From Gammaproteobacteria bacterium HGW-Gammaproteobacteria-13 (GTDB lineage: Bacteria > Pseudomonadota > Gammaproteobacteria > Pseudomonadales > Pseudomonadaceae): 64,000 bases of DNA. A program made the translations under genes and the position numbers. The stretch covers positions 204,179 through 268,178 of the forward strand of contig PGZH01000012.1 of NCBI GenBank assembly GCA_002840155.1, in the 5' to 3' direction. The notes under the pieces are model-generated. The model was given only the letters and a program-made list of their open reading frames with translations. It did not search any database and was not told the DNA's origin. Positions 4,827 through 49,639 of this stretch are shown one piece after another. How positions within the stretch are numbered: the stretch's first letter is position 1; the number at the start of each line of letters is the position of its first letter.

Positions 4827-6131
4827 TTAGTTCAACTGCTCGACGCGGATACGCACAACGCTGCCGACCACATCTTCGAGCGCCTCAAGGGCACTGATCG
4901 CCTCATTGATCTGCGCTTCGACCACGCGATGAGTGACCAGGATCATCGGCACCAGGCCATCCTGCTCCTCGACTTCCTTCTGCATGATCGACTCGATATT
5001 GATCCCGCGCGCCGACAGAATGCTCGCCACCTGAGCCAGCACGCCCGGATGATCCTTGGCCTGGATGCGCAGGTAATAGGCGCTCTCGCAGGCTTCGATC
5101 GGCAGAATCGGGTGATCGGACAGCGAGTCCGGCTGGAAGGCCAGGTGCGGCACGCGGTTGGTCGGGTCGGCTGTCAGCGCGCGAACCACGTCAACCAGAT
5201 CGGCGATGACCGAGGAAGCGGTCGGCTCCATGCCGGCGCCAGCGCCGTAGAACAAGGTGCTGCCAGCAGCGTCGCCATTGACCATCACCGCGTTCATTAC
5301 GCCATTGACGTTGGCAATCAGGCGATCCGCCGGGATCAGCGTCGGGTGTACACGCAGTTCGATGCCAGCGTCGGTGCGACGCGCCACACCGAGGTGCTTG
5401 ATGCGATAGCCAAGTGCTTCGGCGTAGTTCACGTCAGCGGTGGTCAGCTTGGTGATGCCTTCGGTGTAGGCCTTGTCGAACTGCAGCGGAATACCAAAGG
5501 CGATAGACGCCAGGATGGTCAGCTTGTGCGCGGCGTCGATGCCTTCGACGTCGAAGGTCGGATCGGCTTCGGCATAACCCAGCGCCTGCGCTTCGGCCAG
5601 CACGCCGTCGAAGGTGCGACCCTTCTCGCGCATTTCACTGAGGATAAAGTTGCCGGTACCGTTGATGATCCCGGCCAGCCAGTTGATGCGGTTGGCCGCC
5701 AGGCCTTCACGAATCGCCTTGATCACCGGGATACCGCCAGCAACAGCGGCTTCAAAGGCGACGATCACGCCCTTTTCGCGGGCCTTGGCGAAGATTTCAT
5801 TGCCGTGCACGGCGATCAGCGCCTTGTTCGCGGTGACCACATGCTTGCCGTTCTCGATGGCCTTGAGTACCAGCTCCTTGGCCAGGGTGTAACCGCCGAT
5901 CAGCTCGATAACGATATCGATCTCAGGGTTGTTCACCAGCTCAAACACATCGCTGGTCAGGCTAATACCGGTGGTGTCGTACTGCGGCTTGGGCGAGCGA
6001 ATGGCAATCTGGGCAACTTCAATACCACGCCCTGCGCGCCGGGTAATTTCCTCGGCATTTCGCTTGAGTACATTCAACGTACCGCCACCGACGGTACCCA
6101 GCCCACAGATGCCTACTTTCACCGGTTTCAC
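4827..6131 (-). CDS. hom: Homoserine dehydrogenase
   Basis: 434 residues; reduces aspartate semialdehyde to homoserine, the branch point to threonine and methionine. Rossmann motif GICGLGTVGGGTLNVL at 7-22; central GGIPVIKAIREGLAANRI and NGTGNFILSEM segments; a C-terminal ACT domain from about 350 (YYLRIQAKDHPGVLAQVASI), which normally mediates threonine feedback. Monofunctional, with no aspartokinase domain. Starts at GTG (6131) preceded by GGGGAG; this matches the MKPVKVGICG N-terminus expected for Pseudomonas. Upstream gene of the hom-thrC operon. Confidence 0.97.
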   Translation of the reverse strand: MKPVKVGICGLGTVGGGTLNVLKRNAEEITRRAGRGIEVAQIAIRSPKPQYDTTGISLTSDVFELVNNPEIDIVIELIGGYTLAKELVLKAIENGKHVVTANKALIAVHGNEIFAKAREKGVIVAFEAAVAGGIPVIKAIREGLAANRINWLAGIINGTGNFILSEMREKGRTFDGVLAEAQALGYAEADPTFDVEGIDAAHKLTILASIAFGIPLQFDKAYTEGITKLTTADVNYAEALGYRIKHLGVARRTDAGIELRVHPTLIPADRLIANVNGVMNAVMVNGDAAGSTLFYGAGAGMEPTASSVIADLVDVVRALTADPTNRVPHLAFQPDSLSDHPILPIEACESAYYLRIQAKDHPGVLAQVASILSARGINIESIMQKEVEEQDGLVPMILVTHRVVEAQINEAISALEALEDVVGSVVRIRVEQLN

Positions 6132-45073: not shown

Positions 45074-45898
45074 ATGCGCCTGTTCACGCTTATCACCCTG
45101 TTCTGCCTCGCCCTGCCCGTCCACGCCGAAGGCTTTATCAGCCGACTGCTGAATAAACCCGTGCCCGGCGGCGTGGCCGTGGTGGATCTGGGGCCAGCGA
45201 GCAGCGCGCCCAGCGTGCGCTATCAGAACAAACCGGTGCTGGTGATTCACGAGGATCAGCAACGCTGGATCGCCATCGTTGGCATCCCGCTGAGCATCAA
45301 ACCGGGCAGCCAGCAGATCAGCGTCAACGGCAGCCAGACCCTGACCTTTCAGGTGGGCAGCAAGCATTACGTCGAACAGCGCATCACCATCAAGAACCAG
45401 CAGCAGGTCAACCCGAACGCGGCCAACCTCAAACGCATCGAGCGCGAACTGGCCGAACAGACCCGCGCCTATCAGCAGTTCAGCGCACGCCAACCGAGCA
45501 ATCTGTTGTTCGACAGGCCGGTCAACGGCCCGCTGTCGAGCCCCTTCGGCCTGCGCCGTTTTTTCAATGGCGAGGAGCGCAACCCGCACTCAGGGCTGGA
45601 CTTCGCGGCCAATAGCGGCACGCCGATCAAGGCTCCGGCCGCTGGCAAAGTGATTCTGATCGGCGACTACTTCTTCAATGGCAAAACCGTGTTTATCGAC
45701 CACGGCCAGGGCCTGATCAGCATGTTCTGCCACCTCTCGGCCATCGGCGTGAAAGTCGGCGATGAGCTGCCACGCGGCGGCGTACTCGGCAAAGTCGGCG
45801 CCACCGGCCGCGCCACCGGGCCGCACCTGCACTGGAACGTCAGCCTAAATGATGCGCGCGTCGATCCGGCGATTTTTATTGGCGCGTTCACGCCCTGA
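45074..45898 (+). CDS. M23 (LytM) family peptidoglycan endopeptidase
   Basis: 274 residues with a signal peptide (LITLFCLALPVHA). An N-terminal beta-rich domain (~25-130) is followed by the LytM domain (LSSPFGLRRFFNGEERNPHS then GLDFAANSGTPIKAPAAGKV, and GATGRATGPHLHWNVSLND), with the zinc ligands His and Asp of HSGLD and the HLHW histidines. Predicted Zn-dependent DD-endopeptidase in the periplasm. 63 bp after xseA. Confidence 0.92.
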   Translation: MRLFTLITLFCLALPVHAEGFISRLLNKPVPGGVAVVDLGPASSAPSVRYQNKPVLVIHEDQQRWIAIVGIPLSIKPGSQQISVNGSQTLTFQVGSKHYVEQRITIKNQQQVNPNAANLKRIERELAEQTRAYQQFSARQPSNLLFDRPVNGPLSSPFGLRRFFNGEERNPHSGLDFAANSGTPIKAPAAGKVILIGDYFFNGKTVFIDHGQGLISMFCHLSAIGVKVGDELPRGGVLGKVGATGRATGPHLHWNVSLNDARVDPAIFIGAFTP

Positions 45899-45927: not shown

Positions 45928-45954
45928 TCAAGCCTTCTCAGCACATGCCGATTA
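45928..45954 (+). promoter_or_regulatory. Sigma-28 (FliA) promoter of the protease-flagellin gene
   Basis: TCAAGCCT (45928-45935), exactly 11 bases, then GCCGATTA (45947-45954). This matches the FliA pattern TAAAGTTT/TCAAG-N11-GCCGATAA and would start transcription about 40 bases before the ATG at 46003. It supports expression as a late flagellar gene. Confidence 0.8.
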
Positions 45955-46002
45955 CGTCTGTGACACCGGGTTTTCCGCCCGGTCGAGCGGGTACACACGT
46001 AG

Positions 46003-47679
46003 ATGCTGACGGTTAACACCAACATCTCGTCGTCGTTCACGCGCCGCCAATTGGAGAGCAATAGCACGGCACTCGGTACTTCGCTGCAGCGCCTGTCCAC
46101 CGGACAGCGCATCAACAGCGCCAAGGACGATGCCGCCGGGCTGCAAATCTCCAACCGTCTGACCTCGCAAGTGCGGGGGCTGAACGTGGCCACGCGCAAC
46201 GCCAACGACGGCATATCGCTGCTGCAGGTAGCGGAAGGCGCTTTGCAAAGCGTCACCGACGCCCTGCAGCGCATTCGCTCGCTCGGCTTGCAGGCCATGA
46301 ACGGTTCCAACGGTGCCAGTGAACGTGCCGCGCTTGATCAGGAAGCACAACAGCTGCTGCAGGAGATCAACCGGGTCAACGAAACCACGACCTTTGCCGG
46401 CCGCAAAGTATTTGATCAAGGCACCTTTTCGGTCCTGGGGGATCTCGACCAGCGGGCCGTACTCAATGCCTTAAAGGGCTTCTGGATCAGCGAAGGCGAG
46501 CAACGGGTGTTCGATGCCTTCGGCCTGACTGCCGATGGCGCTGAGCTGGAAATAACCTTTACCAATGACTCATCCAGCCAAACCCTGGCCTCGGTTTCTG
46601 GCACCTCCGGCGCTGGCGGGAAAATCTTTGATCAGGTACTCAATGTCAACCTGGCCTATTTCGATGCCTCCAGCCTGCCCAACGGCGGCAGCACACCGCA
46701 GTACACCGACAGGGTGATTGCCCACGAAATGGCCCACGCGGTCATGGGCCGCACCATGAACTTTGCCGGGCTACCCAGCTGGTTTATTGAAGGCAGCGCA
46801 GAAGCCTTGCAGGGTGCCGACGAGCGCCTGGCTGGAGACACCGCAGGCGGCACCAATACAGCCGCCATCCTGGCTGCATTTAACGCCGACGATGTCAGCG
46901 CCTCTGCCGGCTATTCAGGCGGCTACGCTGCCGTGCGCTATATGCACGAGGAAATCAAAGCGGCGGGCGGCAAAGGTATAAAAGACATCATGGGCTACCT
47001 GCAACAGAACAGCGGCTCGACCCTGGACCAGGCTTTGACCAACGCCAGCAAAGGAGCCTTTAGCAGCCTGGCCGACTTCAATACCCAGTTCAATGCCGAT
47101 GCGGCGACCTACGTTGCAGGACTAGACCTGAGCAACGCTGATACCGGGGCAATTGGCGGCTTCGATGCTGACGGTGGCAATGTGCTCACCGCCGAGAATG
47201 TGCTGCCCAATCAGGGGACTGGGCTCCCAGGCTCCAAAGGCTTCAAGCTGGTTGAGCCGGAGCTGTTCAATGCCAACGGTGTGGGCGGCAACACCATCAC
47301 CCAGTTCCAAGTCGGAGCCCAGGCCTATGAAACGATCCAAATCGGCTTCAGTGCATTCAGCGTCGATGCGATGGCCCTAAGTCGCCTAGACCTCAGTCAG
47401 ACACCTGGCCTTGCCGTCATGGACATTGATGATGCCCTGGCCTATATCGACCGCCAGCGCGGCTATATGGGTGCCCTGCAGAATCGCCTGGAAAGCACCA
47501 TCAACAATCTGCAAAGCATTGCCGAGAACGCCGCTGCCAGCCGCTCACGCATCCTCGACACCGATTTCGCGGCAGAAACCTCCAACCTGGTTTCTCGGCA
47601 GATCATTCAGCAGGCCGCGCAAAGCGTACTTGCCCAGGCCAATCAACGGCCGCAAGCCGTGCTAAGCCTGCTCGGTTAA
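46003..47679 (+). CDS. Proteolytic flagellin (flagellinolysin-type)
   Basis: 558 residues. Residues 1-~140 are a normal flagellin N-terminus ([60 protein letters not shown]) and ~480-558 a normal C-terminus ([33 protein letters not shown]). The variable middle holds a metallopeptidase: HEMAH (241-245) with Glu242 catalytic and a third ligand Glu263 in FIEGSAEAL, the HExxH-(18)-E gluzincin layout. Flagellinolysins, first described from Clostridium, carry such a domain on the filament surface; this looks like the same class. It has its own FliA promoter and no flagellar neighbours. Expected to build or join filaments displaying protease. Proteolytic activity is inference. Confidence 0.9.
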
Positions 47680-47811
47680 GCGCTCGCAATCGCCGCTACA
47701 TATTCGCCACATCACCGCAAAAAAAACCCAAAAAACCCTTAAACAAGCAATCATAAAGCGTTTTTTTATCAATGCTTGCACGCTTTACCCTCGCTGGTTA
47801 GGGTTGACGCC

Positions 47812-47889
47812 ATGCACACTAATCACACTCTTATTCTGCTGCGCCAACACGCCAACCTCTGCTTGGTCAGCCAGCGACTGCGTGGCTAA
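47812..47889 (+). CDS. Putative leader peptide of leuA
   Basis: A 25-codon frame (MHTNHTLILLRQHANLCLVS, then QRLRG, stop) with six Leu, 157 bp before leuA and just downstream of a possible promoter (TTGCAC at 47776, TTAGGG). GCGTGG (47880-47885) and CCACGC (47899-47904) form a hairpin that overlaps the end of the frame, followed by a T-rich TTAATTTTT. Resembles leucine attenuation leaders; not confirmed by comparison. Confidence 0.5.
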   Translation: MHTNHTLILLRQHANLCLVSQRLRG

Positions 47890-47968: not shown

Positions 47969-49639
47969 ATGAGCATGCTTAAAGACCCATCCAGCAAGTA
48001 CCGCCCGTTCACCCAGATCCAGATTCCGGATCGGACCTGGCCGGACAAGATCATCGACAAGGCGCCAATCTGGCTGTCCACCGACCTGCGCGATGGCAAC
48101 CAGTCGCTGATCGAGCCAATGGATGCCGAGAAGAAGATGCGCTTCTTCAAGTGCCTGCTGGCCGTGGGTTTGAAGGAAATCGAAGTGGGCTTCCCGTCCG
48201 CCTCGCAGACCGATTTCGACTTCGTCCGCGAGCTGATTGAAGGTGGCCATATCCCAGACGACGTGACCATTCAGGTGCTGACCCAGGCCCGTGACGACCT
48301 TATCGAACGCACTTTCGAGTCGCTGAAAGGCGCGAAGAAAGCCATCGTTCACTACTACAACGCCTGCGCGCCGAGCTTTCGCAAGATCGTTTTCAACCAG
48401 GACAAGGCCGGCGTCAAAGCCATCGCCGTGGCCGCCGGCACCACCATCAAGCGCCTGGCCGACGCCGCGCCGGAAACCCAGTGGGGCTTCGAGTATTCGC
48501 CGGAAGTGTTCAGCTCCACCGAAATCGATTTCGCCGTCGAGGTGTGCAACGCGGTAATCGAGGTGTTCCAGCCGACCCAGGCGAACAAGCTGATCCTCAA
48601 CCTGCCGGCGACTATTGAGTGCGCCACGCCAAACAACTACGCCGACCAGATCGAGTGGTTCGGCCGCCATATCGACCAGCGCGACAGCGTGCTGATCAGC
48701 GTGCACACCCACAATGACCGTGGCACCGGCGTGGCGGCCTCCGAGTTGGCCGTGATGGCGGGCGCGGATCGCGTCGAAGGCTGTCTGTTCGGCAATGGCG
48801 AGCGCACCGGCAACGTCTGCCTGGTGACCCTGGCGCTGAACCTCTACACCCAGGGCGTCGACCCACAACTGGATTTTTCCGATATCGACACCGTGCGCAA
48901 GGTGGTCGAGGACTGCAACCAGATCCCAGTGCACCCACGCCATCCGTACGTCGGCGACCTGGTCCACACCGCCTTCTCCGGCTCGCACCAGGATGCGATT
49001 CGCAAGGGCTTCGCCCAGCAGAAGAGCGACGCCGTCTGGGAAGTGCCGTACCTGCCAATCGACCCAGCTGATATCGGCCGCGATTACGAGGCGGTAATCC
49101 GCGTCAACAGCCAGTCCGGCAAGGGCGGTATCACCTTCCTGCTGGAGCAGGAATACGGCATCAACCTGCCGCGCCGTATGCAGATCGAGTTCAGCCAGGT
49201 GGTGCAGAAGGAAACCGACCGCCTCGGCCTGGAGATGAGCGCCGCGCAGATCTATCAGCTGCTGGAGCGCGAATACCTGCAAGCCACTGCTCCCTATGCG
49301 CTGAAAGGCCATCGCCTGCAGGAAGAAAACGGTACCAGCGCGGTCGATGTCGAAGTCATCAATGCTGGCGAAACCCAGCACTGGCGCGGCATCGGCAAAG
49401 GCCCGCTGGAAGCCCTGGTCGCCGGCCTGCCGGTGGCCGTGGAGATCATGGACTACAGCGAACACGCCATCGGCGCCGGCACCAATGCCAAGGCGGCGGC
49501 CTATATCGAGCTGCGGGTTAACGGCGGCCGCGCGCTGCATGGCGTCGGCATCGATGAAAACCTAACTACCGCGAGCTTCCGCGCGCTGTTTAGCGCGCTC
49601 AATCGGGCTCTCGCTCAGACCGCCGAGCAAGCGGCCTGA
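47969..49639 (+). CDS. leuA: 2-isopropylmalate synthase
   Basis: 556 residues; condenses acetyl-CoA with 2-ketoisovalerate, the first step to leucine. Metal and substrate site at [57 protein letters not shown]-terminal regulatory (LeuA dimer) domain from ~430. AAAAGG lies 8 bases before ATG 47969. Preceded by a putative leader peptide. Confidence 0.97.

Follow-up and report, generated by a model that had tools for sequence, protein, structure and literature searches.

A flagellinolysin gene with its own FliA-type promoter and a mosaic origin in a pseudomonad genome

Flagellinolysins and the pseudomonad gene

Flagellinolysins are flagellins that carry a metallopeptidase domain. They were described in 2017 and occur in at least 74 species (PMC5595980); by 2020, 265 putative flagellinolysins were counted in 194 species, and the family constitutes M101 in MEROPS (PMC7643111). 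The gene considered here lies in a 64,000-nucleotide stretch of the genome of the pseudomonad Gammaproteobacteria bacterium HGW-Gammaproteobacteria-13 (the window, to which coordinates refer unless a locus is named). An open reading frame (ORF) at 46003–47679 on the + strand starts with ATG and encodes a flagellin of 558 residues, whose two ends enclose a gluzincin metallopeptidase. Judged by a curated equivalog model, its active-site residues, and its predicted fold, the gene is a flagellinolysin.

Proteolysis has been shown for recombinant relatives (PMC5595980, PMC7643111) and for purified filaments of Clostridium haemolyticum (PMC5595980). The characterised relatives cleave with a preference for large hydrophobic P1′ residues. 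Very few systems of enzymatic flagella have been characterised; the later report calls itself the second (PMC7643111). Neither paper's discussion settles what the cleavage is for (nutrition, biofilm, or attack on other flagella); the 2017 work also stands in the reference list of PMC9927476. FliA(H) of C. haemolyticum resembles the window protein in its layout, with flagellin ends, a gluzincin insert, an HExxH motif, a downstream Glu, and a “basement” Ala, and is likewise a second flagellin beside an ordinary FliC (PMC5595980). Its gene is located in a flagellar cluster (PMC7643111), whereas the window gene stands alone between an M23 peptidase gene and leuA and differs further by its own FliA-type promoter and its pseudomonad-type flagellin ends. 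HgrFlaMP of Hylemonella gracilis is, like the window gene, a Gram-negative member apart from flagellar genes, and its recombinant form is an active calcium-dependent zinc peptidase (PMC7643111). It belongs to a different lineage; in the domain, the window gene shares 44.1% identity with the copy from a Hylemonella metagenome-assembled genome (MAG; L095), which is not that of the characterised strain.

The window gene very probably encodes a minor second flagellin that is controlled by FliA, exported, and co-assembled with FliC, and that displays an active protease on the filament. FliA, the motility sigma factor, would drive the expression of this flagellin, the flagellar secretion apparatus would export it, and its intact D0/D1 ends would build it into the filament among FliC subunits. 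The zinc metallopeptidase on the filament surface would then cut nearby protein in a zinc- and calcium-dependent manner. We infer export, co-assembly, low dosage, and activity of the window protein; for activity and filament location, the C. haemolyticum and H. gracilis relatives serve as the analogy, by which the filament probably digests protein outside the cell.

The family is a known one, and we do not present its pseudomonad members or the promoter as new to the literature. The recurring FliA-type promoter, the leader hairpin, and the mosaic origin do not appear in the sections of PMC5595980 and PMC7643111 that were compared; “promoter” and “orphan” are absent from the main text of both, and “sigma” in the passages concerned is a reagent supplier.

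Protein architecture and active site

A preliminary description of the locus, made from the bare sequence, had proposed flagellin ends flanking a flagellinolysin-type insert, and profile searches agree with this. Flagellin_N (PF00669) matches residues 4–139 with 137.1 bits (Pfam cut-off 26.6) and Flagellin_C (PF00700) matches residues 475–557 with 81.8 bits (cut-off 23), corresponding to the N-terminal helical region (D0/D1) at 46012–46419 (+) and the C-terminal helical region at 47425–47673 (+). NF033876, the curated equivalog model of NCBIfam for flagellinolysin, gives 423.2 bits (cut-off 205), with its full length covered (positions 1–384 of 384).

The AlphaFold model of the 558-residue protein has a mean pLDDT of 88.3. 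In this model the insert adopts a gluzincin fold, as found with a second structure aligner run on the pool of Foldseek matches, and 268 residues of the flagellin core can be superposed on filament subunits. The insert had been estimated at about 340 residues; it is real and smaller than that, with a peptidase fold of approximately residues 142–400 (46426–47202, +), while the residues from there to about 474 include the flagellin's own D1 beta-hairpin (model strands 431–436 and 444–449). Foldseek with the peptidase domain returned weak matches alone (best E 0.018), and no convincing sequence relative of the domain was found in the Protein Data Bank (PDB, best E 0.72). The predicted structure of the insert shows a close M9-like peptidase fold. 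Despite this, a filing under the M9 collagenases was dropped because PF01752 reaches 19.4 bits, below the Pfam cut-off of 26. The M9 collagenases of Grimontia (8jt1) and ColH (4ar1) share 17% and 10% identity, respectively, with the peptidase domain of the window.

The zinc-binding and general-base motif HEMAH (H241, E242, and H245) is encoded at 46723–46737 (+), and the third zinc ligand, Glu263 in WFIEGSAE, at 46789–46791 (+). The gluzincin layout read earlier from these positions is confirmed by the modelled fold and by conservation: H241, E242, H245, W260, E263, G264, A266, E267, D380, and G382 are invariant in all 73 aligned full-length members, partly by construction, as the loci were retrieved via patterns over AHEM.HA and WF.EG.AE. 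This pattern search confirmed at least 198 relatives, the best 80 of which were kept as named loci (L067–L146). By our thresholds 73 of the 80 have both flagellin ends, and the alignment holds the window protein and 72 of them; L067 was excluded as near-identical to the window, and its frame has HEMAH 241–245 and Glu263 at the same positions. Judged by spacing, Glu263 and Ala266 would be the counterparts of Glu262 and the “basement” Ala265 of C. haemolyticum FliA(H) (PMC5595980).

As a rival reading, the window protein could be a flagellin variant of structural or antigenic significance that has lost its peptidase activity. Such a loss is highly improbable, as the HExxH and EG.AE motifs are intact in the window protein and in all 16 other Pseudomonadaceae homologues fetched (L047–L062, 70–97% identical).

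Several relatives depart from the common layout. A protein of Alteromonas sp. C1M14 (L064:5533–6783, and L135) scores 238.5 bits with NF033876 and has no flagellin match, and Pfam assigns no family to its N-terminal part. It may be a relative of the inserted domain that stands alone, or it may have lost flagellin ends that it once had. The proteins of Pelosinus (L121:7611–9272) and Sporomusa (L129:7560–9194) combine an intact protease motif with strongly degraded flagellin ends, in that Flagellin_N is weak and Flagellin_C gives no match at E 0.01; both may be exported and yet not become part of the filament. In L065 (reverse complement, 5058–5987), a 309-residue flagellinolysin frame covers positions 122–375 of the 384-position model, and the sequence beside it resembles what is presumably a transposase tail.

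These departures bear on a rival reading, in which the window protein is a soluble protease that is secreted via the flagellar apparatus and not retained in the filament. Secretion by the flagellar route is named as a possibility in the discussion of PMC7643111, and the degraded ends in Pelosinus and Sporomusa as well as the missing flagellin match in Alteromonas are in keeping with it. For the window protein this is nevertheless unlikely: both of its flagellin ends are intact and superpose on filament subunits, and the C. haemolyticum relative has been found in the filament (PMC5595980).

Promoter and leader of the gene

The promoters recognised by FliA (sigma-28) follow a consensus of the type TAAAG-N14-GCCGATAA. 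Upstream of the window gene, a FliA-type promoter, TCAAGCCT-N11-GCCGATTA, is located at 45928–45954 (+); exactly 48 bases separate its end from the ATG, the distance that had been given approximately before. Written as TCAAG-N14-GCCGATTA, it agrees with 11 of the 13 consensus positions. All 16 other Pseudomonadaceae loci have a GCCGA −10 element 14 bases past a −35-like element, which is TCAAG or TTAAG in 15 of them and TTCAG in L052, and in all 16 the 8-base −10 box ends 43–51 bases before the start.

The same type of site recurs across the family. In 58 of 77 named loci the best FliA-type site in the 250 upstream bases beats base-shuffled copies at P ≤ 0.05, compared with 44 of 583 neighbouring ORFs of these loci, and a score of at least 11/13 is reached by 30 of the 77 loci (our count) versus 5 of the 583 ORFs. 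Related loci are not independent in these counts, for which 100 shuffles per sequence were used for the flagellinolysin loci and 40 for the neighbouring ORFs. Three of the 80 named loci could not be scanned, as L132 and L135 lack an N-terminal match and L125 has fewer than 200 bases upstream. The comparison supports the view that FliA-type promoters recur before flagellinolysin genes family-wide and that the window gene has one of its own. The genome contains a FliA gene (275.7 bits), which would control the window gene, and the recurrence of the promoter provides a specific regulatory prediction.

Between promoter and start codon, the leader can form a hairpin, ACCGGGU-UUUCC-GCCCGGU, at 45965–45983 (+). 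The best stem begins 11–13 bases past GCCGA in 16 of 19 pseudomonad leaders, compared with 149 of 1900 shuffled leaders. Many of the 19 leaders are close relatives, and those of L055 and L062 are identical to those of L047 and L060, respectively. Taken singly, only nine of the 19 stems score above their shuffled versions at P ≤ 0.05, and the support for the hairpin comes from its shared position. The exceptions are Atopomonas L054, which has no stem, L052, whose best stem lies elsewhere, and L050, in which a competing stem outscores the shared one. In our reading of the stems, three of the seven pairs covary between the arms (G-C replaced by A-U) and the loop varies in length, so an RNA hairpin fits better than a protein-binding palindrome. 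The arms were taken from the best stem of each sequence; the MAFFT alignment of the leaders misaligns them. Rfam gave no match at the gathering threshold in the window, the leader hairpin included.

The predicted Shine-Dalgarno pairing averages −4.4 kcal/mol in 20 flagellinolysin leaders versus −8.1 kcal/mol in 17 leaders of ordinary flagellins, and reaches −6.2 kcal/mol for the window gene versus −9.3 kcal/mol for the FliC of the same genome. A TAAAG-N14-GCCGATA promoter precedes nine of the 17 ordinary flagellins, with a leader of 93–104 bases; the other eight have no match to it within 150 bases. From the weaker promoter match and the weaker Shine-Dalgarno pairing, the window gene appears to be set for a lower dose than FliC.

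Mosaic origin

Identities and trees characterise the gene as a mosaic, in which ends of the Pseudomonas FliC type enclose a protease of the betaproteobacterial flagellinolysin type. Over 219 columns, the flagellin ends are 69.9% identical to the FliC of the same genome and at most 59.4% identical to the non-Pseudomonadaceae flagellinolysins in the set. In a 46-row tree of the ends, the pseudomonad flagellinolysins group together (100/100), and with Pseudomonas FliC and two marine gammaproteobacterial members they form a group (100/100) apart from the others; the grouping with FliC alone has a support of 86/85 and is not starred. A single clade of all flagellinolysin ends is rejected by the approximately unbiased (AU) test with p 0.03, a result that is suggestive only, as the test was devised after an exploratory FastTree. 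The tree includes 21 non-pseudomonad flagellinolysins and 17 ordinary flagellins that we chose to cover the spread. The 52 ordinary flagellins collected came from the genus and class samples of the window, L137, and L144, a set that excludes the flagellins of the hosts of other flagellinolysins.

The protease domain of the pseudomonads groups with Rhodocyclales and related members (97/88) and is nearest to Methyloversatilis (94/82, not starred). The Methyloversatilis flagellinolysins (L079 and L080) have the nearest non-Pseudomonadaceae protease domains compared, 60.2–61.0% identical to that of the window, whereas their flagellin ends are 43.1–48.4% identical. This reversed pattern stands out, because the ends are more alike than the insert in 20 of the 30 non-pseudomonad members compared with the window. 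A tree constraint that joins the pseudomonad protease domains to those of Neiella and Pseudoalteromonas (L117 and L146) was not rejected (AU p 0.083). Most likely, the protease entered a Pseudomonas-type flagellin by recombination with a flagellinolysin gene of the betaproteobacterial type, and the resulting gene came to lie between M23 and leuA. Partial transfer of such a kind was described for Clostridium in 2017 (PMC5595980). The mosaic ends point to a route by which a host's own filament protein can acquire an enzyme domain.

A more general picture, to which we assign even chances, is that of flagellinolysin as a portable, self-regulated protease module that resides outside flagellar clusters with its own FliA-type promoter. 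In pseudomonads, the covarying hairpin and the weak ribosome-binding site would keep its dose in the filament low. By recombination at a single fixed site, directly ahead of the D1 beta-hairpin, the protease domain would move alone between resident flagellins, and each new host would thereby rebuild the enzyme on its own filament chassis.

Distribution and genomic setting

The presence of the gene in a pseudomonad had been called striking, which is too strong: 16 of the 298 genomes in the Pseudomonadaceae family sample exceed the NF033876 cut-off, as do 7 of 298 in the genus sample, 6 of 398 in the phylum sample, and 3 of 38 relatives (the samples overlap and include the genome of the window). 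Carriers among the matches listed are Pseudomonas peli, P. guguanensis, P. alcaligenes, P. otitidis, P. mangrovi, and Atopomonas hussainii. Among these matches, P. peli DSM 17833 is the closest record that is named and not a MAG; its identity is 96% in the domain and 97% over the full length. Cultivation and gene deletion are simple in pseudomonads, and this close homologue makes the role of a flagellin-borne protease directly testable in a living cell.

The patchy presence in the genus and family samples and the weak ribosome-binding site would also suit a gene that was acquired horizontally and stays silent in the pseudomonad. This is very unlikely: all 16 other Pseudomonadaceae loci retain the open frame, the active-site motif, and the FliA-type promoter, whose spacing is nearly fixed, and the hairpin keeps its position in most leaders, although much of the surrounding intergenic DNA differs.

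The host genome (4.55 Mb, 26 contigs, 99.95% complete) contains three Flagellin_N matches: the window gene, an ordinary FliC (494 residues from its ATG), and FlgL. FliC and FlgL are encoded on contig C8 and the window gene on contig C23; two FliS-type genes lie 3–4 kb from fliC. As described before, the window gene is flanked by an M23 peptidase gene (45074–45898, +; PF01551, 103.3 bits, cut-off 28.7) and by leuA (47969–49639, +; TIGR00970, 2-isopropylmalate synthase, 799 bits, cut-off 697.4), which are its usual upstream and downstream neighbours and not part of the system. The M23 gene is in turn preceded by xseA (TIGR00237, 506 bits, cut-off 180).

Of the 16 fetched Pseudomonadaceae loci, 15 have leuA downstream and 14 have the M23 gene upstream, in one case about 6.3 kb off. 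By our subtraction, the two genes lie no more than 1 kb apart in 20 of 23 same-genus genomes without flagellinolysin, so the gene occupies a gap between two genes that are near neighbours even in its absence. A blastn search for flagellinolysin remnants in six gene-free loci matched the M23 end and the leuA side alone and does not distinguish gain from loss. The M23-leuA interval seems to take in genes repeatedly, since an MscS-type gene is found on either side of flagellinolysin (upstream in L048, L058, and L061; downstream in L049, L056, and L057) and also in the flagellinolysin-free L176. This gene was called by PF00924 over the cut-off in L048, L049, and L176, and by similar starts in the others.

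The window gene does lie apart from flagellar genes, as had been noted; this setting is usual in the flagellinolysin loci examined rather than striking, and was already reported for Hylemonella (PMC7643111). A FliC, FliD, FlaG, FlgK, or FlgL match lies nearby in 4 of the 80 named loci (L118, L137, L144, and L145), and L085, L130, and L146 have a flanking match to a regulator query alone. These counts, obtained by tblastn with proteins of the window genome over up to 8 kb per side, are lower bounds because of short contigs and divergent genes. The 2017 survey listed flagellar genes and other peptidases among the neighbours of flagellinolysins (PMC5595980).

Between the window gene and leuA, a 25-codon open frame, MHTNHTLILLRQHANLCLVSQRLRG, at 47812–47889 (+) may encode a leuA leader peptide; Rfam has no match there, and similar frames precede leuA in the flagellinolysin-free L178, L179, and L181. 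Past the flagellinolysin stop codon, an A-rich and a T-rich stretch with short inverted repeats, seen by eye at 47720–47780, is possibly a terminator.
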